This document shows, one piece after another, positions 2,072-45,189 of a stretch of DNA of 64,000 bases. The stretch lies in contig VCMS01000115.1 of the NCBI GenBank assembly GCA_022539475.1, forward strand, positions 62,001 through 126,000, read 5' to 3'. The position numbers and the translations under genes are program-made. Within the stretch, counting starts at the first letter, position 1. Every line of letters begins with the position of its first letter. The DNA is from Gracilaria domingensis. Taxonomy: Eukaryota; Rhodophyta; Florideophyceae; Gracilariales; Gracilariaceae. The notes beneath the pieces are model-generated. The model searched no databases. It was not told where the DNA came from and saw nothing but the letters and a program-made list of their open reading frames with translations.

Positions 2072-2168
2072 GCGTTGCGCGTGTGCGGTTGTGTTGCTGG
2101 CGACTTTTTGCTTGTTGTGTGATAAAACAGAACGCGCGCGCAGCGCGCAGCGCGCAGCGCGTTGAGGG

Positions 2169-19552: not shown

Positions 19553-20333
19553 CGTCTGTCTCTTGCAGATGCTAGTTTTTGGCGAGGGTCGTCCAGAAAT
19601 TGGCAAGGGTCGTCCAGTAAATTTTTTGAAAAAATATCGAGATCAATTATTTCAAAATTTGGAGATAATTGCTTGGGTCGTCCAGAATCGCCGTGCAGTA
19701 AATACTGGTGGGTTTTCCACTCATGCTAGTTCTTTAGTCGAGGGCTACCTGAACGGTATTTTGCGAAGTCTAGGTTCAGTTTCCATTAAGGTGCACATTA
19801 CACGATACCTTCTGCGGAATGATACCCTGCAACGCATGGAATACTGGTGCTAGTACAGATGATGCCCATTATGAAATCATACCGTTTTATTCGTATCTAT
19901 TCTTATATCGACCGCTTTTGCTAACCACTACTTCGCTATATTACATGTACCATTTCCCCATGATGGAGCGAGTGTAGGCGCAATCTGCGGCAGATGCCGC
20001 AGACTGCACCTCCACCATAGTGCGGTATCGGTAGAACAAATACGCACTCGAAGCGCCTCATCCTCTCCGTTCCTCATGTAGGGAACCATGCCCAGATGCA
20101 TGGTTCCCTACTTGAGGAACCTGCACCTGCAACTCGTGAGCTACGTACGCATCAAAAATCATTTACCTGTATACGCAAGCGGAAAGTATCCATAAGTTAG
20201 TCAATGATCCGTTGGATACATTTGAAATGCGATGGAACGTACCATTGATAAAGCAAAACAGAAACGTTGCGCTAGAAAAGTCGAGGGACCTAGTAACTCG
20301 CAAAAGGAAGAAGAAGAAGGAAAGAGATCATCC

Positions 20334-21189: not shown

Positions 21190-21305
21190 AACCAGTGGTA
21201 GATAATACGAGAAGTACACCCTTGTGTTGAGGTCGACGTGTACCTACCTTCCTATTTGAACGAAAGCACGTGATTTAAACTCAAAATATATTATCCGTTC
21301 TCAGC

Positions 21306-24300: not shown

Positions 24301-24580
24301 GAAATGCATATCTTTACGGTGCGCTACAAACGATGAAAAGAACCACACTCTTCCGTTCCCTCGTCATTCCAAAGCGGAGACTATCGTAGAGTTAACTCCT
24401 TGGTACGGGATGGTTCCGGCTTCTGCACTACAGGGAACTGTCCATGTTGTTCGATCAAACTACCCTGCTCCACCTTTTTGTCCTCCACTTCAATGGTTTC
24501 AACACCGATTCTACATCAATCGATTCTATCATGATTCAGATGAAGGACCAACTGAGCACGTTGATGTTGTACAGCCTTAA
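21306..24580 (+). pseudogene. Tnp2/Plavaka-like transposase of Big0 (damaged)
   Basis: About 1090 codons. It starts with a Cys/His cluster (CTHKKRGCPF...LQQHVNHCPF) that could be a zinc finger. The central domain shows YTDKSSTTLKQTS...PLHLIFLNFSD, ASYCADIPEAKDIL and CHRCKA, the acidic-residue and CxxC pattern of Tnp2/Plavaka-type DDE transposases, then YSLFSFEPLDNLHLGISKLIK and DHLVDDIRRLGS. The C-terminus (ALTAPEVAFVRYFEVL to PTEHVDVVQP) is present here but lost in the Big1 copy. Stops: TAG 21633, TAA 22221 (CAA in the other copy), TAG 23237, TAG about 23363, TAG 23774, plus a frame change near 22680. It presumably once cut and joined the CGTCTGT ends; it is now inactive. Confidence 0.75.
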
Positions 24581-26977
24581 ACATTAAGGGCTCCATCCCC
24601 TACATGTTCACCTTGTGGTGCCTTTTGTTGTGATCCTGTGCTACTTCCAAAATCGTTCATGTCCATTTCCTTGAACTCCATATCCCCTTCCTCGCATTCA
24701 CCAACGAAACAATCGCTAATAGACCCCAATCTTCGGCTCACACTGTCAATAAAAAATTGTTCTTTCACAGTGAGGTAAATAAAGTCTTCCGTTCGACGGC
24801 ATTCGATATCCAAATGTAGCCTCTCTCATGTCATTACCAAGAACCTTAGTCCAATCTTCCGTTGTCGTTCCAAAATTATGAAACTCGCTGGAATTGGTCC
24901 TCAAGACACGTTGCCTAACATACCCCAGAACATTCTTTAAACACAGAGGTAGCAGTTGGGCAAACTTCTTTGTAAACAGTTTCTGTCTATGGCCACCCCT
25001 TGACACATCCGTACTTAGAAGGATCACAACCGTCAACACCCAAGCGTTCAAACGTGCGAGCAACAGTATTGTGCCATCTAAAAAGGTGCCCGTATCCTTG
25101 TCTTCCACATCACACCCAATAAACTCCTTCAGGTCTTGTACCCCGACACGCTTTCGGAAGAACAAGTCTTGATCTTCCGTCGGCATATCCTCGACATTGT
25201 CCGCATTGGAGTACTTTAGACGAACAAATGGGGCTTTTCTCCACCATGAGGTGTTCGGTACACCATTTTCGTCAAGACGCAGTATGTTCTCCTGCGCTTC
25301 CTTCAACTGCATTGTGAGTTCGTCAGCATTCTCTTCTACCAGCTTTGTTCTTCTCCAAATCAGATCGTACCCCAGGAGCAGAAATAGTTTATCCCTCGTA
25401 TTTCTCTTACGAACGCCCACGACGTCACTCATGGTCTGCCGCATTCTCTGCCTAAGGCACATATCTGCACAAAGTTCCAGTATACACCTGTCGGTAAGAG
25501 ATGCTTTTCTAATACCTTCCCAGCCCAACTCCTTCAACTCGCTTTCAACCATTTTCTTCAGCAAAGCATATGGCCCCCCCTCTACCGACGGTGTGAACAT
25601 GCCAAAACTGCCCAAGAGCTCCACGGGGTTTTTAGGAACCATGTATGAACCACCTTCCTCCGGCTCAATAAGCCCTTCCCCACTCTCAGTTGCGTCTTCC
25701 ACCTTCTCGGCACGGTTACCCCAATTTCGGGTGAGCGACTCACCTTCGAGCCATAGCTCACTTGTTTCTCTCCTTGCCCACGTCAACATGTTGTGATACA
25801 CTGCTCGAGCAACCTCTCGAAACTCGTCGCACACCTCAATTTTATGCTCCTTTCGACCTGTCTGCCCAGGTTCACCAGCACGTGTACTCCCATCTCCCTC
25901 CTGTTTCAGTGCCCCCCTCAGCCCTTCAATGACTAGACCCTTCTCTTCAAGCCTCTTTTTCAAAGCCGTACTCTGCTCTTGAGCGACTTTCACTAGAATA
26001 CCCCGAACCATCAAGTCCTCTTGTAGCGTCTTAACCTTTTCTTTCAAGCAATTCAGTTCATTTAAAAGATCACATCTGTTCATAGAGGTTGAATTCACAC
26101 CAGTGTGGATATCTTCCAGTATTTCCCTAGACTCTTCGGCGACAGGCCCCGGTAATGCCGCAGGATTCGGTGTTATTTAGTTATCGGAACTATCCTCATG
26201 TGCCATACCCTTAGACACGAGAGGCTGCAGCCGTTCTGTGTCCACCCTTGGCACGGCTCCGAGCTCCAACTCCCGTGTCTGTCCTCCTCCATGGCATCGT
26301 ATATCAGATGAATTGGGCCTCGTACGAGCTGCAACGGCCCCCGTTCTGGAAAGAGGGGAAGATCGAGAAGTAACTCGTCTATCAGTTGTCTCTCGATTTC
26401 TTATTGTCTTTCTCCCTTGTCCGGACCCATTGCGAGGCATAATACAATTCATAGCGGCCCCAGTTCTAGACGACAGGGAGGGACGTGACGATCTTAATAT
26501 ACTAGGGCTCTCACGACTTCTCGTCATTGTCCCTTGTTGTCCAGATCCACTGGGCGGCGTAACCCGCGCCCTAGTAGCTCCGGTCTTCGATATCGGCCGG
26601 TGACATGAAGGTTTTGGTGTCATACGAACCTCTTTAGTTCCAGTTGTCATGCCTTCCTGTCCTGAACTGCTAGGCCGAGTGACCTCATCTTCTTGAGGAG
26701 CAGAGACAGATGCACGATTTGCATTATCGGCAGTTGACGGCACGACATCGCTCGCTGATCCACGAATTCTTGACGCAATCCCGGAAAACACTCCGCTGCG
26801 AGATGGGCGAGAGAGTACTGTAGAAGGACGCCCACTGACTCTCTCCTTCGTCGAGGACGACTTCCGTTTAGGGAGTGCGGTGCTTGTAGCCTGATTCGTA
26901 TCATCTGATGCTCTTCTCTTCTTCTGTCCACTCTTGTTCCGCTGCGTACTATTTCGCTTTCTCGGCGTTATACCCAT
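24577..26977 (-). pseudogene. Large unrecognised Big0 gene (disordered basic N-terminus, coiled coil)
   Basis: ORFs 26977-26177 and 26098-24746 are in one frame, separated only by TAA 26177-26179 (CAA would restore it). Near 24815 a shift continues the protein in another frame (DIECRRTEDFIYLTVKEQFFID) to TAA 24577. About 800 residues in all. Residues 1-60 are Lys/Arg-rich, then come four degenerate repeats with the core GSGQ-G-MT-R(E) separated by RTGA, then a coiled coil (LLNELNCLKEKVKTLQEDLMVRG) and a mixed domain (DRCILELCADMCLRQRMRQTMSDVVGVRKR). No family recognised. Position beside the transposase, convergent with it and sharing its end, suggests a transposon protein rather than host cargo. 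Confidence 0.6.
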
Positions 26978-27205
26978 GTTGTGGAGATAAACGGGGTAAT
27001 GAAACGAAATTGTTGGGGAAGTGCATGGTTCAGATATTCCGGGAGACTCCGCAGTTCCTGCTTTTTAGGAATTTGAGGTGCCCAATGGGTCGCAAATATC
27101 GCCGTTACAAATAGATGAAGAGCTCCAGTGTACATGTACAACGCGTATTGCAGGCAGCTGCAACATTCACAAGCATATTTACTTTCTATTCGGTACTGAA
27201 CTCAT

Positions 27206-28327
27206 CTATTGCTCCAATGTCAGAGCCCAGTCCCAGGCGTACTGCTCTCCGTAGTTGAAATACAACTCTTCGCCCCTCTCAATATCTCTTACTGCTCTAC
27301 AACGAAGTAGAGCATAGTTAGAAAGGTCGGACTTAAACTGTATCAAGGACTTCGCTTCCACCATTTGCACATTGGCACTTCGACTTCTTTTTGACCGGGG
27401 CTGCGATAAATCGGGATCCCCGGCATGATATCCGGCGTCATTAATGTAGCCCCCGATACAAAAAGGCGCTGGGACAATGTAGACTTCGCTCTCCTTTCTA
27501 TCCTGAGCCTGTCCTGGTCTGTTCCTCAGGTGCAGAAACTCCGAACCAGTCACAGTGACCATCATAGAAAACAACTTGTACCGCACTGGAGTTGCTCCGA
27601 GACAGCCACTTCCATACGTTAAGTGTCTTTCCTTCCGGTTCGTCAGATCCGTGTATACCAAAGTTCCATAAAAATGACAGATAGTTTCCCCAGCCCATAT
27701 CTTATGTTCCGTGAACACCCCCATACCAGCACGGGGATGTCGAATCTTAGAAGATGCTACATGTAAGCGATAGCGATTGGCTTCAACAGTCAACAGCATA
27801 TGCATATCCATTAGATTCAGAGCTCCTCGGTACTTCTCCTCCCAAAGATCTACAGTATGCTGTTCACACTTGTCGACAAAGTCCCAGTCCTTCCAGTATC
27901 TTCCTAGGAACTGAGCAATATGTGCAGGCATCACTTGGTACCGGGGGTAACCAAATGGAGCCTCCCATTCAAGCCGACCTCGGTCCCGATGTGGAACCCG
28001 TTCATAAGTCGTTGAAGCAGCATCCACCACCTCCTGTTCAACCGCGATGTCAATCTTCCCCCCGCGAAGAACTTCGGCCATAATAGTCGTTATATGGTGC
28101 TTCGCATGGCTGAAACAGGGTCTATTCTTCTCGTACCCCAAGAACTTCCTATGCCCTGTCAGCGATAGGCACGCCATACCCGTAGAAAAAGTTCCCGCGA
28201 ACATGTCCATGACAAGATCACCCGGTCTTGTGAAGCGACATATCAACTCTTTCATCAACTCCCTGGACTTCTGCTCCGGTCTTATGTACTGCCCACTTGG
28301 TACTGAACTACTTGGCTCATTTACCTT
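27206..28327 (-). pseudogene. DNA methyltransferase-SET fusion, C-terminal half
   Basis: The open frame continues from the Big1 junction as VNEPSSSVPSGQYIRPEQKS, RELMKELICRFTRPGDLVMD, MFAGTFSTG. This is the target- and AdoMet-binding end (motif X/I) of a beta-class amino-methyltransferase, in which the catalytic DPPF motif precedes motif I; that motif lies in the other half at 39391-39405. After a linker comes a SET domain: RHPRAGMGVFTEHKIWAGETICHFYG-type entry, GGYINDAGYH in place of the usual NHxCxPN, and GEELYFNYGEQY at the end. The gene as a whole would encode both a DNA N6-adenine (or N4-cytosine) methylase and a lysine methyltransferase. It ends at 27206, 228 bp from the divergent neighbour. 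Confidence 0.8.
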
Positions 28328-28765
28328 CGTCTGTGTTCTGCAAAGTGGAATATAGTCTGTTCGCTTTGGAAACTAAGCTAGTTTTGGGTCTATTTGGGGC
28401 GCGCGAGGGGGTAGCAGAGGCTGGCACTCAAAAAATCAAGAAATTTTGGAATATTAAATTCCATCTCGCGCAGTTTAGTTCTTGGGTCCCCTAGTTTTTG
28501 TAGAGGTTCTACTTCGCCGCATGGTCCCATTCACTCTTTTCCGCGACCCTCTCTCAAAACTGCACTCGTGCTAGTTTGCAGTTCCATTTTCTCCCATGTT
28601 GCAATGCCAATCGCAACTCATCCCACCTCAATCGTCCCATCACTTCTTCCCAGTCCACACCACCCCCGCTATTTACCCATTTCTCGCCCATCACGCGTTC
28701 ATTTTGTAGAAGTCAGGTGCACAACTCTCCCCCTTCTCGTATACCCGCCTCGCCCCAAAACGGCT

Positions 28766-29695
28766 TCAAATCCCTCCCATCCTTCTCTCCTCCTGTCCCC
28801 TCAGAATCCCCTTCGCAGTCCGCGCTACCTCCGCCGCACTCCTAGACCCAGTCACCACCGGAGCTCCCACTCCCTCCCGCGGCACCTCCTCCACCACCTT
28901 CTTCATCTCCTTACGCCTCTTCTTCAGACGGCTCTCCCCATCCCCAACCCCACCACCCTTTGTCTTCGGTGTCACAGGAGACCCCTTCTGCACCGCCACC
29001 CTTCCCACACTTCCCTTCTCCGTCTTTCCCTCCACACCTCCTTTCACCGTCTCCTCTTCCACCAATCTTTGTCTCTTGCACAGCTCCTTCACCTCCTTCT
29101 CCAGCACGTCCAACCTCTCGTTCAGAACCCTATTCTCCTCCCGCAACTCTCCAACCTCCCTTCCCGCACACTCCACTATCCCATACACATGATTTCTCAT
29201 CTCCACTCCCAATACCGACAACGAATTCCGCAGGCTCGAAATCGCCTCAACCAAAACACCACTACCACTCCCACTCAGCACCACACCGCCCATTTCCGTT
29301 ACAATCTCCACAATTCCATCGTTCAGTTGCTCCTTCATCACCAACCCCAACATCCCCACCCTCGCCTTCATCTCCCCCACAAACCGCATCTCCCTGTCAC
29401 CCTCTCCGCCCCCACTCTCTATCTGGTCTCCAACCTCTAACTGACTCAGATGCACCGCACCCCTTCTCTCCATTGCGACCCCCTCCACCTCCAATTCTAC
29501 ACCCTTCTCCACCTCATCACCATCCCCTCTCCTCGCCTCACACTTCTTTCCTTCATCGGCCACTTCCTTCTTCTGCGACATCCGACCAGCCGCCGTAATC
29601 ACGTCCTCTTCCCGCTTTGGTGACGGCGTCTGCGGTACCTCCTCCCCCTCCAACAGCGCCAACAGCTCCTCATCCTTCACGTATCCGTTCGACAT
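28766..29695 (-). CDS. Coiled-coil protein next to the non-transposase end (Big1 copy, intact)
   Basis: 309 residues from the ATG at 29693-29695. N-terminal SNGYVKDEELLALLEGEE, then an acidic/basic low-complexity stretch, then a predicted coiled coil with leucine heptads (LREENRVLNERLDVLEKEVKELCKR), and a basic C-terminus (SRLKKRRKEMKK; ARTAKGILRGQEERR). The Big0 copy at 51044-51973 is about 95% alike by eye but has one stop. The gene sits within 0.5 kb of the element end in both, so it is a constant part of the family, perhaps a DNA-end or targeting accessory protein; that role is inference. No database family recognised. Confidence 0.7.
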   Translation of the reverse strand: MSNGYVKDEELLALLEGEEVPQTPSPKREEDVITAAGRMSQKKEVADEGKKCEARRGDGDEVEKGVELEVEGVAMERRGAVHLSQLEVGDQIESGGGEGDREMRFVGEMKARVGMLGLVMKEQLNDGIVEIVTEMGGVVLSGSGSGVLVEAISSLRNSLSVLGVEMRNHVYGIVECAGREVGELREENRVLNERLDVLEKEVKELCKRQRLVEEETVKGGVEGKTEKGSVGRVAVQKGSPVTPKTKGGGVGDGESRLKKRRKEMKKVVEEVPREGVGAPVVTGSRSAAEVARTAKGILRGQEERRMGGI

Positions 29696-30328
29696 CTTCA
29701 GAAAAAGAAGTAGTAGTTGGATCGAAGTTTCCGCTGCGATACAGTGCAATCGAGCTAAACTGTGCTGTCCACCCCCACTGTCCAACCACACGGGCTATAT
29801 CCAGCACCATGATTGTCCCTGTTTCCCTCATCCCATTTCCCGCCAAAACATCTACTGTACACCTCCGCACCTTCCAATATTTAAGCGCCATCTCTCTGTC
29901 CCCTCTTCACATAGTCCCCACCCACCTCGCCTCGACCGGCGATATTTTTCTCTTCCACCATAACCTCACTCGATGGTTATAGCAAAACAGGAAGATATTT
30001 CCAGTGGAGGCAAGCTAGGGACTAGTGATTGTACTTAGAGTAGCTCACCCTCTGTCTCGACTGCGGGCATCTTCTTCTTCCGTCACATCCTTTGTGGGTT
30101 GTGACAAAAAAAGAATATGTCACCACTCGACACCGGATGGGTAACAATGGTAGCACGTAGAGTAGTTCATCCTCCCTCTCAGCGTCCACTGGGGATATAT
30201 TTATGTTCTCTCACATCCTTTCCCGGTTGTCATACAAGAGAAATACATCTCCAATGGAGACGGAGAATATAGTCGTGATAACACGTAAAGGTAACAATGT
30301 AATAAACAATAAATTTATGCTACTATCT
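29696..30328. repeat. Three degenerate ~125-bp hairpin units upstream of the coiled-coil gene
   Basis: Units start near 29937, 30062 and 30186. Each has GGCGATATTTTTCTCTTCC-like sequence, a stem-loop (ATAACC...GGTTAT; GTCACATCC...GGTTGTGAC; ACATCCTTTCCCGGTTGTCAT), then CCAGTGGAGGCAAG-like sequence and AGTAG(C/T)TCA(C/T)CCTC. Homology to the Big0 end stops inside the first unit (about 30022). They could be promoter or binding elements. Confidence 0.5.
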
Positions 30329-30653
30329 CTAACCAACCTTTCGAAAACCAGCTATGACATGAGCTGGGTTACTCGAGCCAAAGATGGCAGATCCTGCAAC
30401 TGAAATGTTTGCACCGGCCTTCACTACTCCTTTCACAGTACTCAGTCCAATACCCCCATCCACCTGTATCCCTATTCTTGGGTACAACTCCCTTGCATGT
30501 CGCACCTTGTCAAGAACACCCTCCATAAACGCCTGTCCTCCAAACCCTGGCTCCACCGTCATCAACAATAACATGTCTACAACTCCTTCGTTCAGAAGTG
30601 CTTCTACGACCTTTATAGACGTATTCGGGCGCAATCCAACTCCATCCTTTTAA
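30329..30653 (-). pseudogene. RPE: Ribulose-phosphate 3-epimerase, C-terminal fragment
   Basis: About 107 codons matching the last three strands of the TIM barrel: KDGVGLRPNTSIKVVEALL, VDMLLLMTVEPGFGGQAFME (the phosphate/substrate loop), IGIQVDGGIG (catalytic Asp) and GANISVAGSAIFGS, ending at TAG. The first half with the metal-binding His and Asp is missing; TAA immediately precedes the lysine codon. AAAAG just before GAT GGA could have been a splice acceptor, so this may be a captured last exon. The enzyme belongs to the Calvin and pentose phosphate pathways. It is a host gene fragment trapped in Big1. Confidence 0.85.
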
Positions 30654-31046
30654 TTATGGCAATCCAAGTGAAGCTATAGAACCCGTTCACGTCATTTATG
30701 AAGCCAAAATGGCACCTTTCATCCTGTATTCAAGCTCCCCGTAACTCGTACTTTACAACTACTTTACAACTCAGGTTCGAAATCAGTTTCATTCATTGCA
30801 CACTTTCTACTCTTCCACCTACCTTTCATAAAACATCATCACACTTTGTGGCTTGTCGTCTCATACAATCCCTATCATTCATTCAGTACAATCACATATC
30901 ATACATTTCGCTCACTTTCACAAAGTGAACCATGTTCCCGTTCTGCGCTTCCCAACCGTTTGTACTTAAGTATCACTCTTTACCCCAGCAGTTCTCCGCC
31001 CCATCTTCCATTTCTATCGTCACACAAAAACATTCGAACACTTGCA
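30654..31046. other. Non-coding upstream region of the reductase-like gene
   Basis: AT-rich and pyrimidine-rich, no gene. It would contain the promoter and 5' UTR of the gene at 31047, but no clear box is recognisable. Confidence 0.35.
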
Positions 31047-31949
31047 ATGAACTCCCAGTGCGACATGCCTCCCACTCCGCCTCCGAGTCCCAGATACTCT
31101 GACGTCCCTCAGGCCTCATCTCCCGCCCGAAGGACTCGGGCCGTTATTGTTGGAAGGGGGCGTATAGGTACCATGCTGGCGAACGAAGAAGATACGGTCA
31201 TTTCCGCACACGAATTCTGCAGCATGGCTGCTACCTCTCATCTTTCTGATGTACCGATACTAGTTTGTGGAAGAACGAACACCCTGGAGACCGTAATTCA
31301 GGCTTGCCCTTATTCGCTCAGAGAGAATCTCGTTTTCTTCCAGAATAGGGACATCATACCATTGGTTTCGAAGCTCGGTGTGGACACATGTTCAAAAGTT
31401 GTCCTATACGTTGGTGTCCCCTCAAGAAACGCAGCTCCGCAAGATGGTGTCACTCCTCAAAGTCCGGATGGTCTCACTGTCGCAACAGGAAAGTGGGCCT
31501 CCAACGTTGCAGACAGGTTTAGGTCTATGGGTCTCACTTGCGGGGTTGTCGACGAAGACACATTTCTCGTAAGCTATTATGAGAAGCTCGTGTGGCTATC
31601 AGCGTTCAACATCGTCGGGGCCTCAAGAGGTTTCATTCCTATGGACGTAGTCGCTACGGAGTGCAGTACGGTTGTGCTCACAATAATGAAAGAGCTGTTG
31701 AAGATAGTTTCGCTTAAGACAGGTACTACTTTCAACCTGGAAGAGACCGTTGGGCGACTTCTTGCATATGGGAAAACTCTCGTTGGCTTCCCTACTTCTT
31801 TCTCCGACTTTCAGTTTAGGAACGCGTACTTCTACGACTTTTCCCGCCAAGAAAGAAACATTGTAGGCGGTGACCCCGCTCCTTTTCATACAAACTACGT
31901 CAACGTTGTTAAGGAAAAGTTATCCCCCTCCCCATTTCCCCAGCTTTGA
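31047..31949 (+). CDS. Ketopantoate-reductase-like NAD(P)-binding protein (Big1 cargo, intact)
   Basis: 300 residues, ATG at 31047, no interruption. After a Pro/Ser-rich leader comes a Rossmann entry, AVIVGRGRIGTML, with GxGxxG at residues 36-41; then NLVFFQNRDI (compare the ApbA/PanE QNG region) and a C-terminal helical part containing EKLVWLSAFNIVGASRG and FSRQERNIVGGDPAPFHTNY that fits the 2-dehydropantoate 2-reductase fold. Substrate cannot be told. No other gene in the element shares its pathway, so it looks like captured host cargo. It is intact while surrounding genes are broken, which argues for recent capture or selection. Alternative: another 6-phosphogluconate-dehydrogenase-superfamily member. 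Confidence 0.6.
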   Translation: MNSQCDMPPTPPPSPRYSDVPQASSPARRTRAVIVGRGRIGTMLANEEDTVISAHEFCSMAATSHLSDVPILVCGRTNTLETVIQACPYSLRENLVFFQNRDIIPLVSKLGVDTCSKVVLYVGVPSRNAAPQDGVTPQSPDGLTVATGKWASNVADRFRSMGLTCGVVDEDTFLVSYYEKLVWLSAFNIVGASRGFIPMDVVATECSTVVLTIMKELLKIVSLKTGTTFNLEETVGRLLAYGKTLVGFPTSFSDFQFRNAYFYDFSRQERNIVGGDPAPFHTNYVNVVKEKLSPSPFPQL

Positions 31950-32008
31950 GGTTAGAACACATGACTTTTCGGTGTTGTACACCTTTTAGAGATAGTTAAA
32001 CATAAAAG

Positions 32009-33127
32009 TTACTTTATCGAAATGACCTGTTCCCTAACTTCACGTACAATGGACTGTCGAAGTGAAAACCGGACGTTATCCACAATTTCGCAACTTTTAT
32101 CGCCGGGATAGATAACAAACGCATCCATCTTCTGCAACAGGTCTCCAATAGCAGAATCCACTTCTTCTCTCCACTGCCACAGTTTGTTGTACACGAAATT
32201 GGAATTGAGGTTCACCTTTGGTACCTTCTGACGAATTCGTCTGTACGTCTTGCTCCGAGTAGGTGTCCCTTGTGTTCCAGACCGCTCGCCAGAAACACTT
32301 GAACGTGCCATTCTTGCGGACAGAAGCACAACGTCACCGTCCTGCTGCTCCGCAGTTTCTGGTGCAGTTTGGGGTACAGATGGACCAGCTCCTTGTGAGG
32401 ATTGCGCATCCGCGTCTGGAAGGGGACCTTTTATGATCTCATCTTCCTCCTCTTGCACAGCCGTCCCCTGCTGAACCGTCTGTTTCGACGCAGAAGATCC
32501 CCTTGTGTCGACGGTCTGATTCATCGCAGGAGAAGCCCTTTTCGACGCAGTGGGCTTCGTAACGGAGGTAGACTTTGTTTGACCTGTCCGCTTCGTAGCT
32601 GGGGATGCTCTCGTCTTCATAGACCGCTTCGTAACAGACGACGGACCTGCCCGTGGAGGTGCTACTGATGCGCTACCTCTCGGTGTTGATGAACTTCGAA
32701 TTGGCTCCGTGCGGCTTGTCGGCGTCATCACCTCACTCATAGCGCTCACCGTTCCTCGCTTGGACGCCGGAATGCTGGCTGCCACCGGTTCCATCATTTT
32801 CCCATCCCAAGGAGCGGCCGTCCGGAGATCCTGGATATATTGTGGAAGATCCAGGCCCTCCGCCCGGTAAGGGTAGAACGTCTGACCGCTTCGAATGATG
32901 AGAATATTATGAACCATCACAAGACCTGGGTCCAATTGCTTCCCGAGCAACTCGCGGCGTAGAACACTTCCAATTCCATGCAAAAACGCTTACCCCACTA
33001 TCACCTTTCCTTCATTCTCAATATCCATCTGCAGAGAAACCCGCATTCCACCTTGCAATAATCGAGTGCTCCGCCGAGTGCGAGGAGTCACGCTTTGCGT
33101 ACGCTTTCGAACACGAGTTGGCTTCAT
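32009..33127 (-). pseudogene. Unrecognised 372-codon Big1 gene with one premature TAA
   Basis: ATG at 33125-33127, TAA at 32990-32992 (codon 46), then open to the end at 32009. A CAA would restore the frame; a GTAAGC donor also overlaps this point, so an intron is a second explanation, but no acceptor fits. N-terminus basic (KPTRVRKRTQSVTPRTRRSTR), next a short ordered part (LGKQLDPGLVMVHNILIIRSG), a long Ser/Thr/Arg/Lys-rich linker with repeated (S/T)(V/A)TKR-type motifs, and an ordered C-terminus (NSNFVYNKLWQWREEVDSAIGDLLQKMDAFVIYPGD). The start abuts the promoter-like block also found upstream of the methyltransferase gene in Big0. Confidence 0.55.
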
Positions 33128-33204
33128 GTTGAACAGCTATTGCAGTGAAAGGTGTATATCAACAATACGTTCGCTCTGGACGATACAAGAACGGATGCGA
33201 GCCT

Positions 33205-33915
33205 TTTAAATGGCGACTTACGCTGGGCACCCCCGCTTTCGGCAGCTCCTCCCAGCGCACTGCCAGTCTCGTCCGTGTCCTGTCCGTGGCCGCTCGCACG
33301 CTGATTGTACGCTTTAGAGTCGTGGAGTTCGCGCAATGATGACTCACGCGAGCAATGGTCGCGCTCTCTAATCATGCTCTTCAAATGCTTTGCATAGTAG
33401 TCAAGAGAACACTCATTTACTTCCATGTACAGCCTACTCCCGCGAATACACGTGGACAGCGGCGCCAACGTACCGGCGGCCGGGTGTAGCGAAATCACTG
33501 CGGGGCGGCGTGTTTTGGGAGGTCCCGGGAAGGCGCCGAAATGTGGCCAAAACGTGCCGCGGCGGAGGTACTCGTGGTACCTACCCTAACACGACCGGAC
33601 CCCCCCGCCCGCGGGCATAAAATCGCACATTTTTCACAAAATCGTCCAAAACGTGATCGCGGGCGGGGGGGTCCGGTCGTGTTAGGGTAGCTACCCTAAC
33701 AAGACCGACCCCCTCCGCCCGCGGGCACGTTCTGGCCACATTTTGGCACCCTCCGGAGACCTTCGAAAGCACTCCTCCCGGCTCTTCTGGCAGTGATTTC
33801 GCTGCACACGCCGTGCACACATATCAAACTAGAGAAAACTAGCGCTTCACACCCACTTGATCCGCGACTTTTAGCACAATACGCGACCTTTGCAATAGCT
33901 CCGAATCGCGACGTG
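33205..33915. repeat. Promoter-like block and palindromic module in Big1
   Basis: Part P (33205-33287: TTTTAAATGGCGACTTACGC to GCCAGTCTCGTCCGTGTCC) lies next to the gene start at 33127. It is followed by Q' (to about 33480), a palindrome M1 (33489-33805) and S' (to 33915). M1 is an inverted repeat, GCGAAATCACTG...CAGTGATTTCGC, containing two smaller palindromes of the form CCCTAACACGACCGGACCCC / GGGGTCCGGTCGTGTTAGGG. In Big0 the same P is followed by S, M and Q in the opposite orientation. Confidence 0.7.
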
Positions 33916-36806
33916 GCCGACATCAGAGCGACTACCTGGGCAACCCAAGTCTCCGAATCTTCTCCGCTTACCAATACAGTGGAAAACTTTGGCTTTCTAC
34001 TGGGACCAAATGCTGGAGAAGCGAAGACACGTTGGATGATGGGGTATTTGGGTCGTCCCAGCTTAAGTGCCTTAGAAGACGAATCGAAGTGTTCAAGAGT
34101 CGGAACGAAACCGCCTTTCACGAGGGCCGAATTCACCAGAGTTATCCTTGTCTTTTCTGGGAAGTATGTAATAGAGTGCTCATCCAGTGTTTCTTTCACG
34201 AGACTGAGGAAAGAAGGAAGGGCCTGTTCACCAATTTGGTCAAGAATCGACCTTGTGTCCGTACTTGAGAACATCTCTCTAACAGCAGTCCATGTTTTTG
34301 AACTGGACATACTTGAAACACAATGTTGAAGAGCTCGTAAAGTGAACTAAATCCCTCACATTGCAAACCGAGGAAGCTGTGTGGAAGTTCCTGGTAAACC
34401 TGGATTACGCTGGTAAGGAGTATTGCCATTCCATTGCTTTCTAACATGTCCGTGCTCAATGGAGCGAATAGTCTCCTCCACAGCCGTTGCTGTTCTTCTG
34501 GACGTCTTTTTGTAGTGTCTCTTAAATAGCAGGTGTGCATGTTCGTATATGCCTGCGTCGTAGTACTTGATACTTCCCAGACGGCGAATATCGTCCACGA
34601 GATGATCGAGAAGATGAAACTTCAGAGTTCCCAGTCTGGAGGGATGAAAATCCGCCAGAGTCTTTGTTGCGGAACGCTTGAAGGCTTCAATCTCCGAACT
34701 AAGACACAGGAGACAGCTTTCAGTCCAATACGGGTCACGATTGTATCTGAATAAGGTCGAGAGCAAGTCCGAATACTGAGAGAAAACGGTTGTGATTGGG
34801 GCAACGTCCTGTTCTCCACAGCATATGTCAAAGAATGCTCCTATGAAGGGAAAGACCATGTCAAGTGCTTTGTAGTTTTTGGCCTCCAGCATTCCACGGA
34901 GACCGTCTTTCGTGAAGATACCATTCAAAGATTTGCCTTTCTCCTGCGTGGAGAAATCGATATGTAAACCTTTGGCAGGAGAATCGCGTTCTATGGCAGC
35001 TAGAATTGCGTTTGCATGGTTGAAAAGTTGGGTGCGTATCGTTCGAAATGAACGCGATGCAGATGTTCCTATTGTGGTGCACAGGGTGTCTGACTGCAGT
35101 CTCTCGATTGTGGCCGTTTTTATCAACTTTGAGATGCCGAGATGCAAGTTGTGTAATGGTTTGAATGAGAACAGACTGTATGGTGACAATCCCGGGATCA
35201 TTCCAAGGCTTACGGAAGTTTCGAGGAACGAAGGAATGAGAGATATGGAATTTGAACGCATCAGAGTATCCGCTTGAGATCTCCTCTCCCTCGCACGACG
35301 TGGACGTCTTTCCGCCTCGTCTTTTTGTGGATGTTGCAAGATAGCTGTGTATGTCTTTCGGATGCTTTTCGTGTGCTTTTGAGAACGTCCGTTGAATGAG
35401 GTGGGAATAGGACTGCATAAAGATGAGCGAGGGGCTTTGCATCTATGACACGGGCTTTCCGTTTTGGTGCCATGAAGAATAGACAGAATGTCCTTAGCCT
35501 CAGGAATATCCGCACAATAACTTGCAAGCAGAGGATGGCACACTCGACTTAGTTTGTCTTCGCCGATGAACTGAAAACCTTTCTGCGTGAGATTTAGAAT
35601 GGGCTCCAGGACTTGACGAAGAGATTCTTGAAGGATTTGCATCCTGGACTCGCGTAGAGACTTGCTAGAAACAAATGGCATTGCGTCTGCTTCAGATGCG
35701 GAAACCTCGATCAGTGTGGTAGGGAAGTATGCCACTACTGTGAGGTCATCACGGATACACTTACGGCGAAGCTGGTCGGAGAAGTTGAGAAATATGAGGT
35801 GAAGAGGATAGGGGGTAACCGATGTTTGCTTTAGAGTTGTTGAAGACTTATCGGTGTATACCTGCAGAAGACCTACGAAAGATTCACTGTAGCTTATTTC
35901 TTGGGAGTACCACACTATTCTACTATCCAAAGAGCCCATGACCATTTCCTTAAGTTTTGAGGTGGCTTCTCTTGCGAGAGAGCCGGACATGGGGTGAGAT
36001 ATTTTCGTGGAGTGGGTCTGAGGTATAGAGTGGAAGAATGTGTTTTCGTTGTTAGCCAACTGGAGCTGTTTCACAAGTGTCTGAACGGGGTCTCTCGTGT
36101 AGAGGGTGGCGCTGAACTTACATCCTTCTGGCGAGACAGTTCTGCGATTGAAACCGTCCTTTGAGGCGTATCGTTCGAAAATGGCGTTCTTCAGATCTGT
36201 ACAGCGCTTGGAACTTGTTATGGTCTCGTTGAATCGCTTTTGCGAGAATCGCGGGTCCCGAAGTAGCCCAATTAGCTCGTCTGCCTGACGATGACCAAGG
36301 TTGGAAGCTACTGAAGCCAGACAAACCGTGAGATAATCCATATGCAAATCACCAAGGGCCTCCTCAGAAGGCACTGGGCGGGAACTGCTTCCGTGTTCTC
36401 GCTCTAATGACGCGGGACCCGGGGAAGGAGAAACACAATGCGAAGTGTCCGGAATGGGAGGGGCGCACGGAGTGGGGTCGACGATGTCCTCGGACACTGG
36501 AGGCTCGGGAAGGCGACAAGGGGCAGTGAACGTTTCGGAAGATGCGGGCGCGGGCGCGGAAAGCTTGAGACGCTTGCTTCTCCGAATGGCCCGGCTATTT
36601 TCGTTTTCCAGCGCTGCTTTCAGACGAAACGGGCAATGGTTGACATGCTGTTGAAGAGATAAGACTCCTCGGCGAGTAACGAAGGGGCACCCACGCTTCT
36701 TATGTGTACAGTAGTAGACCATGGGAAGAAGAAATGAACGAGAAACGACGACAAAGACTGCAAGGGAAGGTCGTCCGAAGGGAGAAGGAGGTCGAGCGAC
36801 AGTCAA
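33916..36806 (-). pseudogene. Tnp2/Plavaka-like transposase of Big1 (3' truncated)
   Basis: Homologous along its length to the Big0 copy. The first 816 codons (36806-34356) are free of stops, ending at TGA 34361-34363 (AGA in Big0). The sequence continues, after a TAG shared by both copies, as SSSKTWTAVREMFSSTDTRS... until about 33923, where it breaks into the palindromic block; the last ~125 residues present in Big0 are gone. The N-terminal Cys/His cluster, YTDKSSTTLKQTS, ASYCADIPEAKDIL and CHRCKA are kept. The middle part (about 34960-35440) reads better in a second frame, implying compensating indels. Confidence 0.75.
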
Positions 36807-38915
36807 GATCGACGTGTTGCTCAGAACGGATAATATATTTTGAGTTTAAATCACGTGCTTTCGTTCAAAAAGGAACGTAGGTACACGTCGACCTCAACAC
36901 AAGGGTGTACTTCTCGTATTATCTACCACTGGTTATAAACCTCTGGTTTCCCAACGTTGTACGCTGTACACTTGTCCAATCTCGCACAGAAAAATAAATC
37001 TCTTCCCTCCGCCGCCGCCCCCGCCCGTCCGACGTCCGATCTTTTGTTACCGTCGTGATCCGTGCCATCCTCGCGTTCTACTCCGCTCCGTCGTACGTTT
37101 TTCCGCCCTCGCACTCGCTACGAAGTGCGAGGGCGGAAAAAAGTACGACGGATTACGAAGTAGCGTGCTGAGAATGGATTCCATTAAGCGGACATGAAGC
37201 GTACCTTATTCTCTTTCTCCGACCTCGTCGGACGCCTCCATAAAGCGGACAGCATCCGTATCTCACGGATGTATTCCGTGCAGTCTTTCCGTGCAGTCTT
37301 TTCGTACGTGCTTCCATTTCCTTCTACGTATCTTTGTTCTAAACTAACCAATCCTCACCACGTCTCTTCGCGCTCTGCGACATGTAAACGGCAGGAAAAA
37401 GGCTTTGGGTTACTTTTGCGAGTTACTAGGTCCCTCGACTTTTCTAGCGCAACGTTTCTGTTTTGCTCTTATCAATGGTACGTTCTATCGCATTTCAACT
37501 GTATCCAACGGAGCATTGACTAACTTATGGATACTTTCTGCTTGCGTATACAGGAAAACGACCAATTTCATTTCGTCTCTCAAGATCGATCTCTGGCTGT
37601 TCGGGATAGGCGATTCTGGTACTTGGTTGGGACATAGGCTGCTCTCTCGTTTATCGCATCTTGCGGTATGTTTGCTGCTTGGGCATTCTTGGTGTCCTTG
37701 GTTGTGAGTTCTCGCTTCGACACCTTTTCGCGCTTTACGATGATGGTGGGCTGGTAATCTAACCGATCCTTTTCCTGCTTCTTCTTCCGTTTGCGAGTTA
37801 CTAGGTCCCTCGACTTTTCTAGTGCAACGTTTCTGTTTTGCTCTTATCAATGGTACGTTCTATCGCATTTCAACTGTATCCAACGGAGCATTGACTAACT
37901 TATGGATACTTTCTGCTTGCGTATACAGGAAAACGACCAATTTCATTTCGTCTCTCAAGATCGATCTCTGGCTGTTCGGGATAGGCGATTCTGGTACTTG
38001 GTTAGGACATAGGCTGCTCTTTCGTTTATCGCATCTTGAGGTATGTTTGCTGCATGGGTATTCTTGGTGTCCTTGGTTGTGAGTTCTCGCTTCGACACCT
38101 TTCGCGCTTTACGATGATGGTGGGCTGGTAATCTAACTGATCCCTTTCCTTCTTCTTTTTCATTTTGCGAGTTACTAGGTCCCTCGACTTTTCTAGCGCA
38201 ACGTTTCTGTTTTGCTTTATCAATGGTACGTTCCATCGCATTTCAAATGTATCCAACGGATCATTGACTAACTTATGGATACTTTCCGCTTGCGTATACA
38301 GGTAAATGACTTTTGATGCGTACGTAGCTCACGAGTTGCAGGTGCAGGTTCCTCAAGTAGGGAACCATGCATCTGGGCATGGTTCCCTACATGAGGAACG
38401 GAGAGGATGAGGCGCTTCGAGTGCGTATTTGTTCTACCGATACCGCACTATGGTGGAGGTGCAGTCTGCGGCATCTGCCGCAGATTGCGCCTACACTCGC
38501 TCCATCATGGGGAAATGGTACATGTAATATAGCGAAGTAGTGGTTAGCAAAAGCGGTCGATATAAGAATAGATACGAATAAAACGGTATGATTTCATAAT
38601 GGGCATCATCTGTACTAGCACCAGTATTCCATGCGTTGCAGGGTATCATTCCGCAGAAGGTATCGTGTAATGTGCACCTTAATGGAAACTGAACCTAGAC
38701 TTCGCAAAATACCGTTCAGGTAGCCCTCGACTAAAGAACTAGCATGAGTGGAAAACCCACCAGTATTTACTGCACGGCGATTCTGGACGACCCAAGCAAT
38801 TATCTCCAAATTTTGAAATAATTGATCTCGATATTTTTTCAAAAAATTTACTGGACGACCCTTGCCAATTTCTGGACGACCCTCGCCAAAAACTAGCATC
38901 TGCAAGAGACAGACG
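36807..38915 (-). repeat. Big1 transposase-end terminal and subterminal region
   Basis: Inverted homologue of 19553-21305. It holds three tandem units of about 370 bp (starting inward near 38305, 37935 and 37560), the TAGGGAACCATGC stem-loop (38358-38386) and the CGTCTGT end. Short frames in the units (for instance 37955-38236) repeat with the units and differ in phase, so I do not call them genes. Confidence 0.7.
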
Positions 38916-38917
38916 TT

Positions 38918-40926
38918 CCATGTCAACCACTCCCCCGCTCTCGGTTTTGGCACCCGGTCAATTACATTCCTGTTAGCCGGGAAAGTAGAAGGAATGAAAT
39001 TGTTCTCCTCAAATGGAGTAAGACTGGCTTCCTCGGATGGTTGCAATCCACGCTTCACCCCATGAACGGCGTACTCCGTTACGGGCTGTATCCCAAACTC
39101 CCGTGGATTCCCTCCAACATTACTTCGATCCCGGATGAACACCAGTGGATTCCCATCCACTTCAAACGAAGGCATGAGTTCTGGCTTACCCTCGCTTCCA
39201 GCTTCATCTTTCGTACTCGCCGTTTCGGAAAGTATCCTGTGCCAGACATGAAACTGTGCCATGGCACAGAATATAATGAAGTGCCCACCTGACCGAAGCG
39301 CGGAACTTATTAAGTCAGCCGTACTGATCATGTCATCCTCACTGAAGACATCGTGAGCACTATTCCGTTTGCTCCTCTTCCTTCAAGTGTTAAAGGGAGG
39401 GTCATTTAGGACAAGCTGTGCCTCAACCCATAAAATCTCACTCTGATTCACAAATGTTTCGTGTGTGTGCCTCAGGTCCTTCATGTCACATTTGTACGCT
39501 ACAAAATGTGACTTTCTCATCCCCTTCCACACCTTGTCCATATTCATTCGAAGGAGACTGGATATCCCCTTCATGGGCGGCTCAATACCAGTCTTTTGGA
39601 TGTTGTACCCGGCAACCCGAGATTCATGCTCCGCACGATTCACCGGCTTCTCGAAGTCGTCGCTATTGGAGCTCACGAGATCTATATACTCTCGACGAGG
39701 TGGGGCTTGGGCAGACTTGGTCGAAGAAGGTTCGGCATTACCGGAAGTTTTAGGGGTTTTCGTCAGTTCAATATCAGGTTTCGCGTGAATGCCGACATGG
39801 AACCCTGCCGCATGACGCATATCCTGTATCGGTTTCCATAGCAACTCCGAAAAGTTCTGAAATCGTGCAGGCAACTCACCGGAGTCAGAACCAGATACGG
39901 TATCCATCCGTATCCCCGAAAACTCTATCCAGTTCCTCATCTGTTCAACCCGTAAGCTATAAAGGCTATTGTGGGTGCATATGGTTTCGAGGTCTGTCAA
40001 AAATTCCTTAGCCAGTATTCGGAGGTTTGTATCGCATTCATCACTCAAGGTCTCCACCAATCCACTAGTACTGCTCTGTGGCACATCTTTTGTGTTGAAT
40101 CGAGTACTCTGGCTCGGCGGGGCACAACCAGACTCCCGTGTCTCTAGCGCTGTATACTTCAACGTCTGCATATTCATGTAAATGTATGGTTTCGCCATGT
40201 GCTGAACGTTCGTGTATCTACGATGAGCCGCAAAACAACTCCATGCCCATACGACCTCACTGATAGCGAATCCCAGTCGATCACAGTTGTCTTTAGAGAA
40301 CGACGTAAAAGTGGGTATGTACACAGATGGTGCACTTTTCGTTTCTTTTTCGGTTGTTTCTTCTTCATCATTTTGATGTTGTCGTTCTCTCCCATTATGT
40401 GGCCGAGATATGATAAGTATATAACGACCTCAAATGGGTTCACAGCTGTTGGTGGGATGAACACTGTCGTCTTCAGAACCTGCTTTCTCCTGGTCATGAA
40501 ATAACCAACCAGGCATCGCACCGGTAGGTATATACCCATATCCATAGAGAGAAAGAAAAAATCGCGGAGTTTCTGGTCCTCATCTCCGTCCTTCTTGTCA
40601 AGAAGCTTCGTTACAAGATATCGTTGTTCCACAGGTTTGTTATTCACAACACTCTTTCGTAGCTGTTGCAGTGTCAAGTTCTGCAGGTTCTTGGAGTTAG
40701 TGGCCTCCTCAAACATTTTCCTTGCCTCCGGAATATCCTCATAGTTCTCGGCGCAGAACTCTATTAGCCCTCTAAACCCTACGTCCCGTGGCCGATCAGG
40801 GCCTCCATCGCTGTTTGCCAAAGCATCGCGAAGAACCAAGAAAAGTCTGACATATGCATGGAACGCCGGAGGCGGAGCACTAATGTCGATAGGATGTAGC
40901 TCCTCTCCATCATCGGTGGAATCCAT
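38918..40926 (-). pseudogene. DNA methyltransferase-SET fusion, N-terminal half
   Basis: Starts at 40926 with MDSTDDGEELHP, about 200 residues of unknown type including KKKQPKKKRKV, a nuclear-localisation-like run. A frame change near 40300 leads into the next part, which has CDMKDLRHTHETFVNQSEIL and WVEAQLVLNDPPF: the catalytic motif IV DPPF (39391-39405). TGA at 39382-39384 (CGA would restore it) is followed in frame by SSALRSGGHFIIFCAMAQFH and NPLVFIRDRS, the usual strand order after motif IV. The frame is cut at 38918 by Big1 and continues at 28325. Full length about 1040 residues. The enzyme would act in the nucleus on DNA and, through SET, on histone or another protein. It lies directly next to promoter-like block P. 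Confidence 0.78.
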
Positions 40927-42487
40927 CGCTTCAGCGCAAACAACGGAGGCGAGCCTTTAAATGGCGACTTACGCTGGGCACCCCCGCTTTCGGCAGCTCT
41001 TCCCAGCCTACTGCCAGTCTCGTCCGTGTCCGTGTCCGCTCCCTTCTGAGGTCAGTGTCCGTGCCGCTTCGAGCGGGTGCGATAGCGTCGCGTGTCGGCC
41101 ACGTCGCGATTCGGAGCTATTGCAAAGGTCACGTATTGTGCTAATAGTCGCGGACCAAGTGGGTGTTAAGCGCTAGTTTTCTCCAGTTTGATATATGTGC
41201 ACGGCGCGTGCAGCGAAATCACTGCCGGAAGTGCCGGGAGAAGTGTTTTGGGAGGTCTCCGGAGGGTGCTAGAATGTGGCCAGAACGTGCCCGCGGGCGC
41301 GGGGGTCGGTCATGTTAGAGTAGGTACCCTAACACGAACGGACCCCCTGCCCGCGCGGGCACGTTTTGGGCGATTTTTTGAAAAATGTGCGATTTTATGC
41401 CCGCGGGCGGGGGGGCCCGGTCGTGTTAGGGTACCTACCCTAAAACGACCGACCCCTCCGCCCGCGGGCACGTTCTGTCCACATTCTGGCACCCTCCGGA
41501 GACCTCCCAAAACACTCCTCTCGGCACTTCCGGCATCCACCGCGTCACCTCGGTGCACCATCCCGTCTTCTCCATCCCTCAAACGCTCCCTAATTCCCAC
41601 GGGCACCACACCTACCCTCTAGTAAAGATTAGTTTACTGAAAGTTACAAGTTGTTTCATAGCTTACCACTAGACTACGAAAGACTGCTATCGATGGCGCT
41701 CTTAAGTATTGCTGCGCCCGGGGGCGGCCGCCGGGCCATCGCCGTTGCATCCAGTATATCAGGCCCGTCGTGGAACACGGCGCAGACATCAGAGAGTCCC
41801 CCACATCATTAACACTCGACACCATCCTCTTTTCTAGAGTAGATGTGGTGCGCGTGGAAATTAGGGAGTGTCTGGAGGGTAGAAAAGACGGGATGGTGCA
41901 CTGAGGTGACGCAGTGGGTACAGGGAGTGCCGGGGGGTGTGTTTTGGGAGGTCTCCGGAAGGCGCCAGAATGTGGCGCGAACGTGCCTGCGGGCGGGGGG
42001 GGGGGGGGGGGTCGGTCGTGTTAGGGTAGGTACCCTAACACGACCGGACCCCCCCGCCCGCGGGCACGTTTTGGGCAATTTTTTGAAAAATGTGCGATTT
42101 TATGCCTGCGGGCGGGGGGGGGGGGTCCGGTCGTGTTAGGGTACCTACCCTAACACGACCGACCCCCCCCCCGCCCGCGGGCACGTTCTGGCCACATTCC
42201 GGCGCCTTCCCGGGACCACCCAAAACACGCCGCCCCGCAGTGATTTCGCTACACCCGGCCGCCGGTACGTTGGCGCCGCTGTCCACGTGTATTGGCAGGA
42301 GTAGGCTGTACATGAAAGTGAATGAGTGTACTCTTGATTACTATGCAAAGCATTTGAAGAGCACGATTAGAGAGCGCGACCATTGCTCGCGTGAGTCATC
42401 ATTGCGCGAACTCCACGACTCTAAAGCGTACAATCAGCGTGCGAGCGGCCACAGACAGGACACGGACGAAACTGGCCCGAGTCTACG
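40927..42487. repeat. Promoter-like block P and a 1.46 kb foldback array in Big0
   Basis: P (40945-41031) abuts the methyltransferase gene start. From 41013 to 42477 the array is bounded by inverted copies of GCCAGTCTCGTCCGTGTCC. Inside lie S (about 41090-41205), palindrome M2 (41212-41545), an inverted pair X/X' (41546-41632 and 41845-41925) around a 210-bp loop, palindrome M3 (41930-42255) and Q (to 42458). M2 and M3 each contain arms with GTTAGGGTAGGTACCCTAAC and G/C runs up to 13 nt. No genes. Confidence 0.7.
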
Positions 42488-42703
42488 GATTTGCTGGTTA
42501 GATACCACATGTACATGGTACCAGAGGGCTACGCACTACCTGATGCTGTTCATCGGGTGCGGGATTTCCGACCCACGTTTGTCACTTGTGACGAGGAGGA
42601 GGAGGCGGAGGATGAACTGTTGTCCGATAAGGAGGGTGGGGCGGTTGACATGGAAGAAGACCAAGTGGTCGTGGAGATTGGTGTGGAAGCGGAGGCCGGT
42701 TGA
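42488..42703 (+). pseudogene. Acidic C-terminal fragment of an unknown protein
   Basis: Open frame directly after the foldback array: LVRYHMYMVPEGYALPDAVH, RVRDFRPTFVTCDEEEEAED, ELLSDKEGGAVDMEEDQ. A neighbouring frame continues the acidic character (EVLESSSDDDLPI) to 42766. No start codon of its own is convincing, so it looks like a gene tail truncated by the array. Confidence 0.35.
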
Positions 42704-43039
42704 ACTGAAGTGCTCGAGAGTAGTAGTGATGACGATTTGCCAATAATGAGGCTGCGAGCGCCTCGAAGTGGATGAGAATGAGATGATTAGTAAATTATGA
42801 GTGTCTTGCGAGTATTAAGAGTAGTATACTATTGCAAGGCTATACATATGAACATAGAAAAGGTGCGGCAGGCTGGTAATTGAACAAATGTCATACTTCT
42901 TTGGTCCAGTTTCGTCTAATTGCAACATGCCACATGCTCGGTATCGTTAACATCATTGGTGACACCATTCAATCCGCAATTGAACATGTAGCGTCCTAAC
43001 ACTTCTGAAACTGCACTTAAGGTTGCTTTTAAAAGAAGT
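42704..43039. other. Non-coding spacer
   Basis: AT-rich, short frames only; nothing recognised. Confidence 0.35.
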
Positions 43040-44742: not shown

Positions 44743-45189
44743 ATTATAACGCAAACACCTTGTGTTGACAAAAGTTTCCAAGAATCGGTTGTTCTACCCT
44801 TTAAGCTCCCGTTTGTGGTTGTGTTCCAGTTTCCGCTACGTTCGTATTACTTAGCATTGTCAAGGGAGAAGTCGCCGTACAGGGCTTACTATCTTCCCAG
44901 TGGCTTGACGCTTTGTAATTGAACTGAAGAAACCTTAATTGAACCACTCCGGCTGCAATTGCAACTTACAGCGAAGGGAATCGAACCTAGAACCTCTGAA
45001 ATTGCACCGGCGCCGCCTACCCACTAGGCCAGGCGCGCGGCACTGCTTGTCTGCAACCTGCAAATTGCAATTTTTTAAAAGTGGCAGCGCGAGGCTTGAT
45101 TTGCACTTTTCGAAAAATTAGACAATATATTTTGGCAACCCCCCGATTTGAGCCAATTTCAAAGGTTCTCCGTTCGCGCAGCTTATACC
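44743..45189. other. Spacer with tRNA-like sequence
   Basis: No coding potential. It includes the tRNA-like stretch described separately and the leader of the second gypsy gag. Confidence 0.35.
44966..45038 (-). tRNA. tRNA-like sequence, probably pseudogene or SINE head
   Basis: On the minus strand an A-box-like TGGCCTAGTGGGTAGG (45031-45016) is followed at the right distance by a B-box-like GGTTCGATTCC (44987-44977). A 4-bp D stem (GCCT/AGGC) pairs. The anticodon and T stems pair poorly, and the acceptor stem is unclear, so it is not a functional tRNA as read. It may be a tRNA-derived retroposon head. Confidence 0.3.

Follow-up and report, generated by a model that had tools for sequence, protein, structure and literature searches.

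A predicted DNA amino-methyltransferase fused to a SET domain on a Plavaka-type transposon of the red alga Gracilaria domingensis

The 64,000-nucleotide stretch analyzed here (the window; contig C115, positions 62001-126000, of the red alga Gracilaria domingensis) carries a broken copy of a gene that joins a DNA amino-methyltransferase (MTase) to a SET domain, and this fusion almost certainly belongs to a mobile element with a Plavaka-type transposase. Intact copies encoding a single polypeptide of 1055 residues were found elsewhere in the 77.9 Mb genome (680 contigs) that was searched. The element that holds the window copy, named Big0 in a first-pass annotation of the window, extends from 19553 to 52441.

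The fusion gene and its intact copies

The two parts of the gene in the window lie on the minus strand. When the intact protein was used as a tblastn query, the 5′ part was placed at 38912..40956 (residues 1-684, with a gap at 195-210) and the 3′ part, which was also recognized by Pfam, at 27209..28327 (residues 683-1055, including the S-adenosylmethionine (AdoMet) motif and the SET domain), so that the window pieces correspond to residues 1-194, 211-684 and 683-1055. The open reading frame (ORF) 27206-28372(-) matches the Pfam N6_N4_Mtase profile at positions 162-215 (E 7e-11, 42.9 bits, cut-off 26.7) and the SET profile at positions 1-105 (E 6.7e-8, 33.3 bits, cut-off 22.4). Both scores exceed the curated cut-offs, and a chance origin of either domain, in the sense of a fortuitous motif similarity that gives an MTase or SET signal, is therefore excluded. 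The first-pass annotation had staked its reading on such profile hidden Markov model searches, and each half was assigned by them.

The motifs are arranged along the minus strand in the order DPPF, the catalytic motif IV of amino-methyltransferases, at 39392..39403; RPEQK at 28268..28282, of which R, E, Q and K are invariant in the alignment described below; the AdoMet-binding motif I, DMFAG, at 28193..28207; the SET GxG motif (GMGVF) at 27713..27727; YIND at 27437..27448, at the position of the usual NHS motif of SET domains; and the C-terminal SET motif EELYFNYG at 27248..27271. These positions agree with the motifs read at first sight, namely NDPPF at 39391-39405, which is correct to within one base, DMFAG at about 28180-28208, inside which it was found, and SET motifs ending in GEELYFNYG, for which Pfam confirmed the domain. 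The amino-methyltransferase type proposed for the enzyme is likewise borne out by the N6_N4_Mtase match and by the location of DPP[YF] before the AdoMet motif, which is the permuted, beta-class order. The window copy is real but dead. The 5′ part that contains the catalytic DPPF also has one stop and one frame change, and three lesions are seen in the whole gene: a stop directly after DPPF, a frame change in the gap at 195-210, and an insertion at 28328-38915. The proposal of a single restorable minus-strand gene in Big0 held, in that both parts align to the intact protein and Big0 is one insertion.

A genome-wide SET search, in which 150 of 311 candidates were scored and the eight strongest were put aside as probable other SET genes, provided 20 loci that were fetched. 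An open frame of 1055 residues is present in eight of them and a frame of 820-1050 residues in eight more; the remaining four comprise three copies of a 1170-residue subfamily and the window's own locus. The 1055-residue protein of locus L009 matches N6_N4_Mtase over profile positions 2-215 of 221 (E 7.9e-15) and then SET over 1-105 of 105 (E 1.5e-7). The 1170-residue protein, which is 25% identical to it, matches the same two profiles (E 3.1e-16 and 5.6e-7, respectively). The halves are thus fused in one polypeptide in intact homologues, as had been supposed, rather than being separate genes. MTase matches without a scored SET domain downstream were found at 74 loci, four of which were fetched. 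Three of the four have SET above the cut-off in the same frame, and in the fourth (L117), where Pfam finds no SET, alignment to the fused protein of L116 continues past an in-frame stop and covers the SET region at 97%. These loci represent two further subfamilies (proteins P0032 and P0033) and raise the number of diverged subfamilies in this genome to four, all of which have both domains. All three copies of the 1170-residue subfamily (L021, L022 and L023) lie on one 115 kb contig, C382; in L021, the one copy translated, the methylase domain has an acidic insert and EPPY replaces DPPY.

The carrier element and the fixed place of the gene

Big0 is a single insertion into a long terminal repeat retrotransposon with the target-site duplication AA. 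Self-comparison of the window located end A (CGTCTGTCTCTTGCAG) at 19553 and at 38915(-), and end B (CGTCTGTGTTCTGCA) at 28328 and at 52441(-); the outer element accordingly has end A at 19553..19852(+) and end B at 52142..52441(-), with the termini CGTCTGT...ACAGACG. The flanks of 19553-52441 (653 bases on the left and 659 on the right) were searched separately, with 40 places scored for each, and after removal of the window's own place 39 left-flank and 39 right-flank places were compared. The two flanks are adjacent elsewhere in 30 pairs, of which 29 overlap by exactly 2 bases and one shows a gap of 2, which identifies the empty site and shows that 2 bp of target (AA) were duplicated. One copy of the carrier, on contig C318, spans about 22 kb from end to end: its B and A ends enclose 22.15 kb that contain SET, and no target duplication is visible for this copy, the flanking dinucleotides being AT and CA. 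The 10.6 kb insertion that interrupts the window gene (28328..38915, flanked by TT) is a related deletion derivative that lacks both the fusion gene and ORF3, a further gene of the element.

The transposase is found in both elements. In the inner one it occupies 33924..36845(-) by tblastn, where the only Pfam match of the frame 34356-36845 is PF18759 (Plavaka; E 1.3e-17, 64.5 bits, cut-off 26.3); in the outer one it is frame-broken and was recovered by tblastn in three pieces at 21279..24299(+). A protein search with the Plavaka protein gave one relative only. ORF3, which is broken in the window (24580..27064(-), tblastn), has no Pfam match in either of its two frames. A KDZ carrier was considered and is excluded by the sole match of the transposase frame to PF18759. 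Plavaka elements, which belong to the CMCT clade, are described with the termini TGT..ACA (PlavakaA) or CATCA..TGATG (PlavakaB) (PMC12730594). The ends CGTCTGT..ACAGACG fit neither, whereas the 2-bp target-site duplication does fit the 2 (or 2-3) bp of Plavaka elements. Because the termini are unlike both, the carrier is referred to as having a Plavaka-type transposase and is placed in neither described subgroup.

In the copies that were read, the gene order is ParB-like gene(-), palindromic repeats, MTase-SET gene(+), ORF3(+), Plavaka transposase(-) and end A, and many element copies are without one part or another. The genome-wide lists for the two ends and the transposase were scored for 40 of 617, 40 of 647 and 123 of 672 candidates, respectively, so that the counts that follow are lower bounds and absence means little. 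MTase and/or SET lies on the expected strand, 7.0-8.9 kb away, at 16 of the 40 scored A-ends (the window's own included), while SET on the opposite strand occurs within 20 kb of two, one of which is the window's nested copy. At seven of the 40 scored B-ends, MTase/SET has the expected orientation; the distance is 13.2-15.5 kb for six of them and 22-23 kb for one (on C26). Among the 216 merged MTase/SET loci, 42 have a convergent Plavaka match no more than 9 kb away, where 1.6 would be expected, and the other three arrangements gave 0, 2 and 1. The distances between MTase/SET and Plavaka cluster near 4.5 kb and at 5.3-5.9 kb, the latter cluster being composed of loci with only the MTase half scored and of another subfamily (C12 and C399 were read). 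This fixed spacing to element ends and transposase confirms that the gene is transposon-borne, and the expected proximity to CGTCTGT ends was recovered for subfamily A, at no fewer than 16 of 40 scored A-ends and at least 7 of 40 scored B-ends.

Relatives in other genomes

Intact homologues, which the first-pass annotation had proposed to look for, were obtained by protein searches. Residues 440-1055 retrieved 23 relatives, one of them named as an adenine specific DNA methyltransferase of Chondrus crispus. The alignment of all 23 with the two query subfamilies spans both halves. In this alignment of 25 proteins, the invariant positions include P522, P523, E700, Q701, K702, D723 and G727 in the MTase half and G885, Y907, N978, N1001 and E1036 in the SET half. 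All 25 have the DPP[YFW]-before-AdoMet order, with EPPY in P0005, and P0013 stops within the last SET motif. A second search, with a distant member as the query, gave 35 matches, 7 already known and 28 new. A regular-expression motif test was passed by 29 of 49 relatives, its pattern being too strict for motifs of varying length, after which the 28 new relatives were tested with profiles, beside the alignment of the first 23. Both halves were matched in 24 of the 28. Among the other four, P0058 (labelled partial) and P0045 end or lose the frame ahead of the SET part; the last two, 369 and 465 residues long, are distant methylases. The label of P0058 reads 'MAG: DNA methyltransferase, partial [Bacteroidota bacterium]', a label that may stem from the assignment of a eukaryote's transposon DNA to a bacterial genome during binning.

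In a tree of 27 proteins, with 8 of its 24 inner branches well supported and 11 weak, the four subfamilies of this genome fall on different branches: P0032 is joined with P0009 and P0033 with P0008, both with good support, and P0005 is grouped with the Chondrus protein. As judged from these comparisons, the fusion is old and has been kept together across a diverse family.

Profile matches in the PDB for the MTase half are beta-class methylases (best E 2e-14), namely the DpnA-type 5hek, CcrM, M.RsrI and M.MboIIA. These resemble the fusion protein in the profile match over the AdoMet half and in motif order, but they are bacterial enzymes that stand alone and measure 232-366 residues in the PDB entries. 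In PHROGs this half matches a phage DNA methyltransferase family (E 3e-21), and the NCBIfam scan gave CcrM-type matches below the cut-off only. The PDB matches of the SET half (EZH2, KMT2C and KMT5A) are all weak and short, at 3e-5 to 6e-4; they agree with a SET assignment but give no class or target lysine. A ready-made viral fusion was also considered as the source and is unsupported: in a scan of viral contigs that listed 600 stretches, at least 132 were confirmed, and the 80 of these that were retained match query residues 437-762 only, none of them reaching the SET half.

Selection on the copies

The selection test used 15 of the 20 fetched copies, leaving out the three of the 1170-residue subfamily, L027, and L028, which is the window copy. 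The ratio of nonsynonymous to synonymous rates (dN/dS) is 0.41 overall, 0.29 in the MTase, 0.38 in SET, 0.45 in the linker and 0.52 in the N-terminal part, values that come from copies chosen for long frames, a choice that selects against stops and possibly introduces a slight bias on other changes. The pooled dS is 0.05. With the neutral expectation for nonsynonymous changes taken from the observed substitution rates, a deficit of such changes was found overall (P 1e-8), in the MTase (P 3e-6) and in the N-terminal part (P 0.003). Purifying selection is clear for the MTase and weak for SET.

The neighboring gene and the palindromic repeats

A ParB-like/dioxygenase-like gene adjoins the fusion gene. 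In the window it is present as remnants, at 32204..33136(-) in the inner element (residues 1-311) and at 42476..42772(+) in the outer one (residues 1210-1308), where it is divergent to the MTase-SET gene; in other copies it lies at 75-1301(-) of L122, 7041-9998(-) of L023 and 1760-2914(+) of L021. The full form has 1308 residues, with a ParB-like stretch that matches phrog_3264 weakly (E 0.0025) and a C-terminal domain bearing LHTDF...GSH...FVGRGDVxHAG...RY, which we take to be the pattern of 2-oxoglutarate Fe(II) dioxygenases. Two diverged subfamilies share the residues H222xD224, H298 and R318 in an alignment of four rows, two of which are C382 copies. Pfam gave no match for this domain up to E 10, and the PDB gave nothing relevant, so that by motif only, read by eye, it looks like a 2-oxoglutarate dioxygenase. 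Of 665 candidates for the dioxygenase-like domain, 102 were scored, and at least 32 are divergent to MTase/SET within 12 kb, against 1.7 expected and one in each other arrangement. The ParB-like gene is divergent to an MTase/SET locus within 9 kb in 18 of 42 cases. In the second subfamily the gene also adjoins MTase-SET, in a different orientation.

Long palindromic repeats at 42002..42172 separate the divergent MTase-SET and ParB-like genes. They consist of nearly perfect 58-nt inverted repeats with TACCCTAACACGAC / GTCGTGTTAGGGTA units, and palindrome-like stretches similar to them are present in other element copies. These repeats could serve both genes as a promoter or be a binding site.

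A candidate dual chromatin writer and its alternatives

On balance, we lean towards the view that the element encodes a dual chromatin writer that would act on element copies. The MTase half is most likely a bacterial- or phage-type permuted beta-class amino-methyltransferase, with N6 of adenine as the predicted target from DPP[YF], because DPP rather than SPP in this half presumably indicates N6. The MTase part would bind element DNA and methylate it, with adenine N6 as the probable position, and would bring the SET part to nucleosomes on that DNA. In the same chromatin the SET part would methylate a lysine. Marks on DNA and on histones might thereby be placed together on element copies, and the paired marks would keep the element expressed or mobile in a host that silences repeats. 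The ParB-like/dioxygenase-like protein would act as a partner. Methyl transfer to both DNA and lysine is reasonably probable, and an anti-silencing role of the predicted writer is a more tentative proposal.

Several observations weigh against the dual-writer view. The usual SET motifs are GxG, NHS and ELxxDY, and in this family GxG and E..YG are kept in most members but NHS is replaced by IND in most and by INH in P0005. The Pfam SET scores of five proteins of subfamilies A, C and D are modest (23-33 bits against a cut-off of 22.4), and these two features together make SET activity less sure than MTase activity. The deficit of nonsynonymous changes is weak in SET (P 0.03) and not significant in the linker of the 15 copies (P 0.1). 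Moreover, purifying selection reflects usefulness to the element and says nothing on the direction of the effect. The 216 merged loci are divided into 76 with both domains, 74 with MTase only and 66 with SET only, a division due partly to the scoring of 150 of 311 and 150 of 328 candidates and partly to real fragments.

Two other functions fit the anatomy nearly as well as a dual writer does. The protein might place repressive marks on the element's own copies and thereby limit copy number and harm to the host, which we consider unlikely. SET enzymes are often repressive, the anatomy and selection would be identical, and EZH2 and KMT5A are among the PDB matches, but so is KMT2C, and all three matches are weak and short with no class assigned; the more than 200 MTase/SET loci and the dS of about 0.05 among the 15 copies, by contrast, point to recent amplification. 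Alternatively, methylation, perhaps with chromatin opening, at the ends or palindromes might gate binding of the transposase or the ParB-like protein, as Dam methylation gates IS10 and Tn5 in bacteria. The conserved linkage of transposase, MTase-SET and ParB-like genes and the long palindromes between divergent genes would suit such control of transposition, but gating alone does not need a SET domain, and the inner element has moved without the gene, though help in trans is possible; we hold this function to be similarly improbable.

Non-catalytic and non-mobile explanations appear weaker still. It is quite improbable that the MTase, the SET domain or both have lost catalytic activity and act as binding modules instead. 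The change of NHS to IND in most SET domains of the family is what such a loss might produce, whereas little or no variation is seen across the 25 proteins, which are 22-40% identical to the first, in DPP[YFW] (EPPY in P0005), in the EQK motif, in the Asp and Gly of the AdoMet motif, or in the GxG, Asn, Glu and Tyr of SET. An amplified host gene family that lies near transposons by chance would account for the high copy number alone, but not for the fixed distances and strands to ends and transposase, by which it is ruled out for subfamily A, or for the empty sites around the element holding the window copy, and we give it next to no credence.

A wider form of the dual-writer view, in which the predicted MTase/SET writer, a ParB-like dioxygenase that edits or reads a DNA modification, and the transposase would compose a full self-directed epigenetic kit, is rather doubtful. 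If it were true, the element lineage would run a private chromatin state, inherited with the copies across anciently diverged subfamilies.

Relation to known systems

Transposons with epigenetic enzymes are already known, and the architecture of the MTase-SET enzyme appears to be undescribed; among open-licence papers, no account of an amino-methyltransferase/SET fusion on a transposon was found. Fungal DNA transposons of the KDZ, Plavaka, EnSpm and other groups carry TET/JBP enzymes (PMC12730594). They share with the present element a DNA transposon with a DNA-modification enzyme, Plavaka among the carriers and a 2-bp target-site duplication, but their enzyme is a dioxygenase of 5-methylcytosine, whereas here a DNA amino-methyltransferase is fused to SET. 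The analogy with KDZ elements and TET/JBP drawn in the first-pass annotation therefore stands for a transposon with an epigenetic enzyme and fails for the transposase, which is Plavaka-type, a group that in fungi can itself carry TET/JBP (PMC12730594). The same source names SET histone methyltransferase genes on HarbingerS and oomycete MuDR elements. These are also DNA transposons with a SET gene, but they belong to other transposase superfamilies, and no fused DNA methyltransferase is mentioned in the passages concerned.

Mobile elements that encode a DNA methyltransferase include retrotransposons with DNA methyltransferases (DNMTs; PMC5890265) and DIRS elements with a Dam-like domain (PMC6338049); in the portions of these papers available, the enzymes are of C5-cytosine or Dam type on retrotransposons, and SET is unmentioned. 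The N4CMT of bdelloid rotifers combines a permuted bacterial-type PF01555 methyltransferase with a eukaryotic chromatin domain, as does the present fusion, but this domain is a chromodomain (a reader) rather than SET (a writer), and the accessible text does not describe it as transposon-borne (PMC8885841). Its authors state there that it has no eukaryotic homologues. The portion available of a paper on eukaryotic N6-methyladenine mentions neither red algae nor SET domains (PMC12695648).

With the fusion protein, DNA methyltransferases of the bacterial PF01555 type would have a place in eukaryotes outside bdelloid rotifers. One polypeptide, moved and multiplied by a transposon, joins predicted DNA and histone writers that have been kept together across a diverse family, and it offers a direct way to test whether a mobile element can write its own chromatin.

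Other features of the window

A series of codirectional ORFs occupies 44086-50277(+): a C2H2 zinc finger (44086-44742), a Ty3-like gag with a zinc knuckle (45100-46062), a retropepsin (46032-46682) and a 1137-residue frame (46864-50277) with a tnp2/CACTA transposase match (E 2.8e-15). For the gag frame, 41 matches, the window's own included, cover at least 310 of its 320 residues. Direct repeats were not found by self-comparison of 43.4-50.9 kb, and the series may represent either nested elements or one DNA transposon equipped with gag and protease. The G+C content of positions 1-6000 is about 71-75%, against about 41-57% elsewhere in the window, and the composition of host sequence and repeats may differ.

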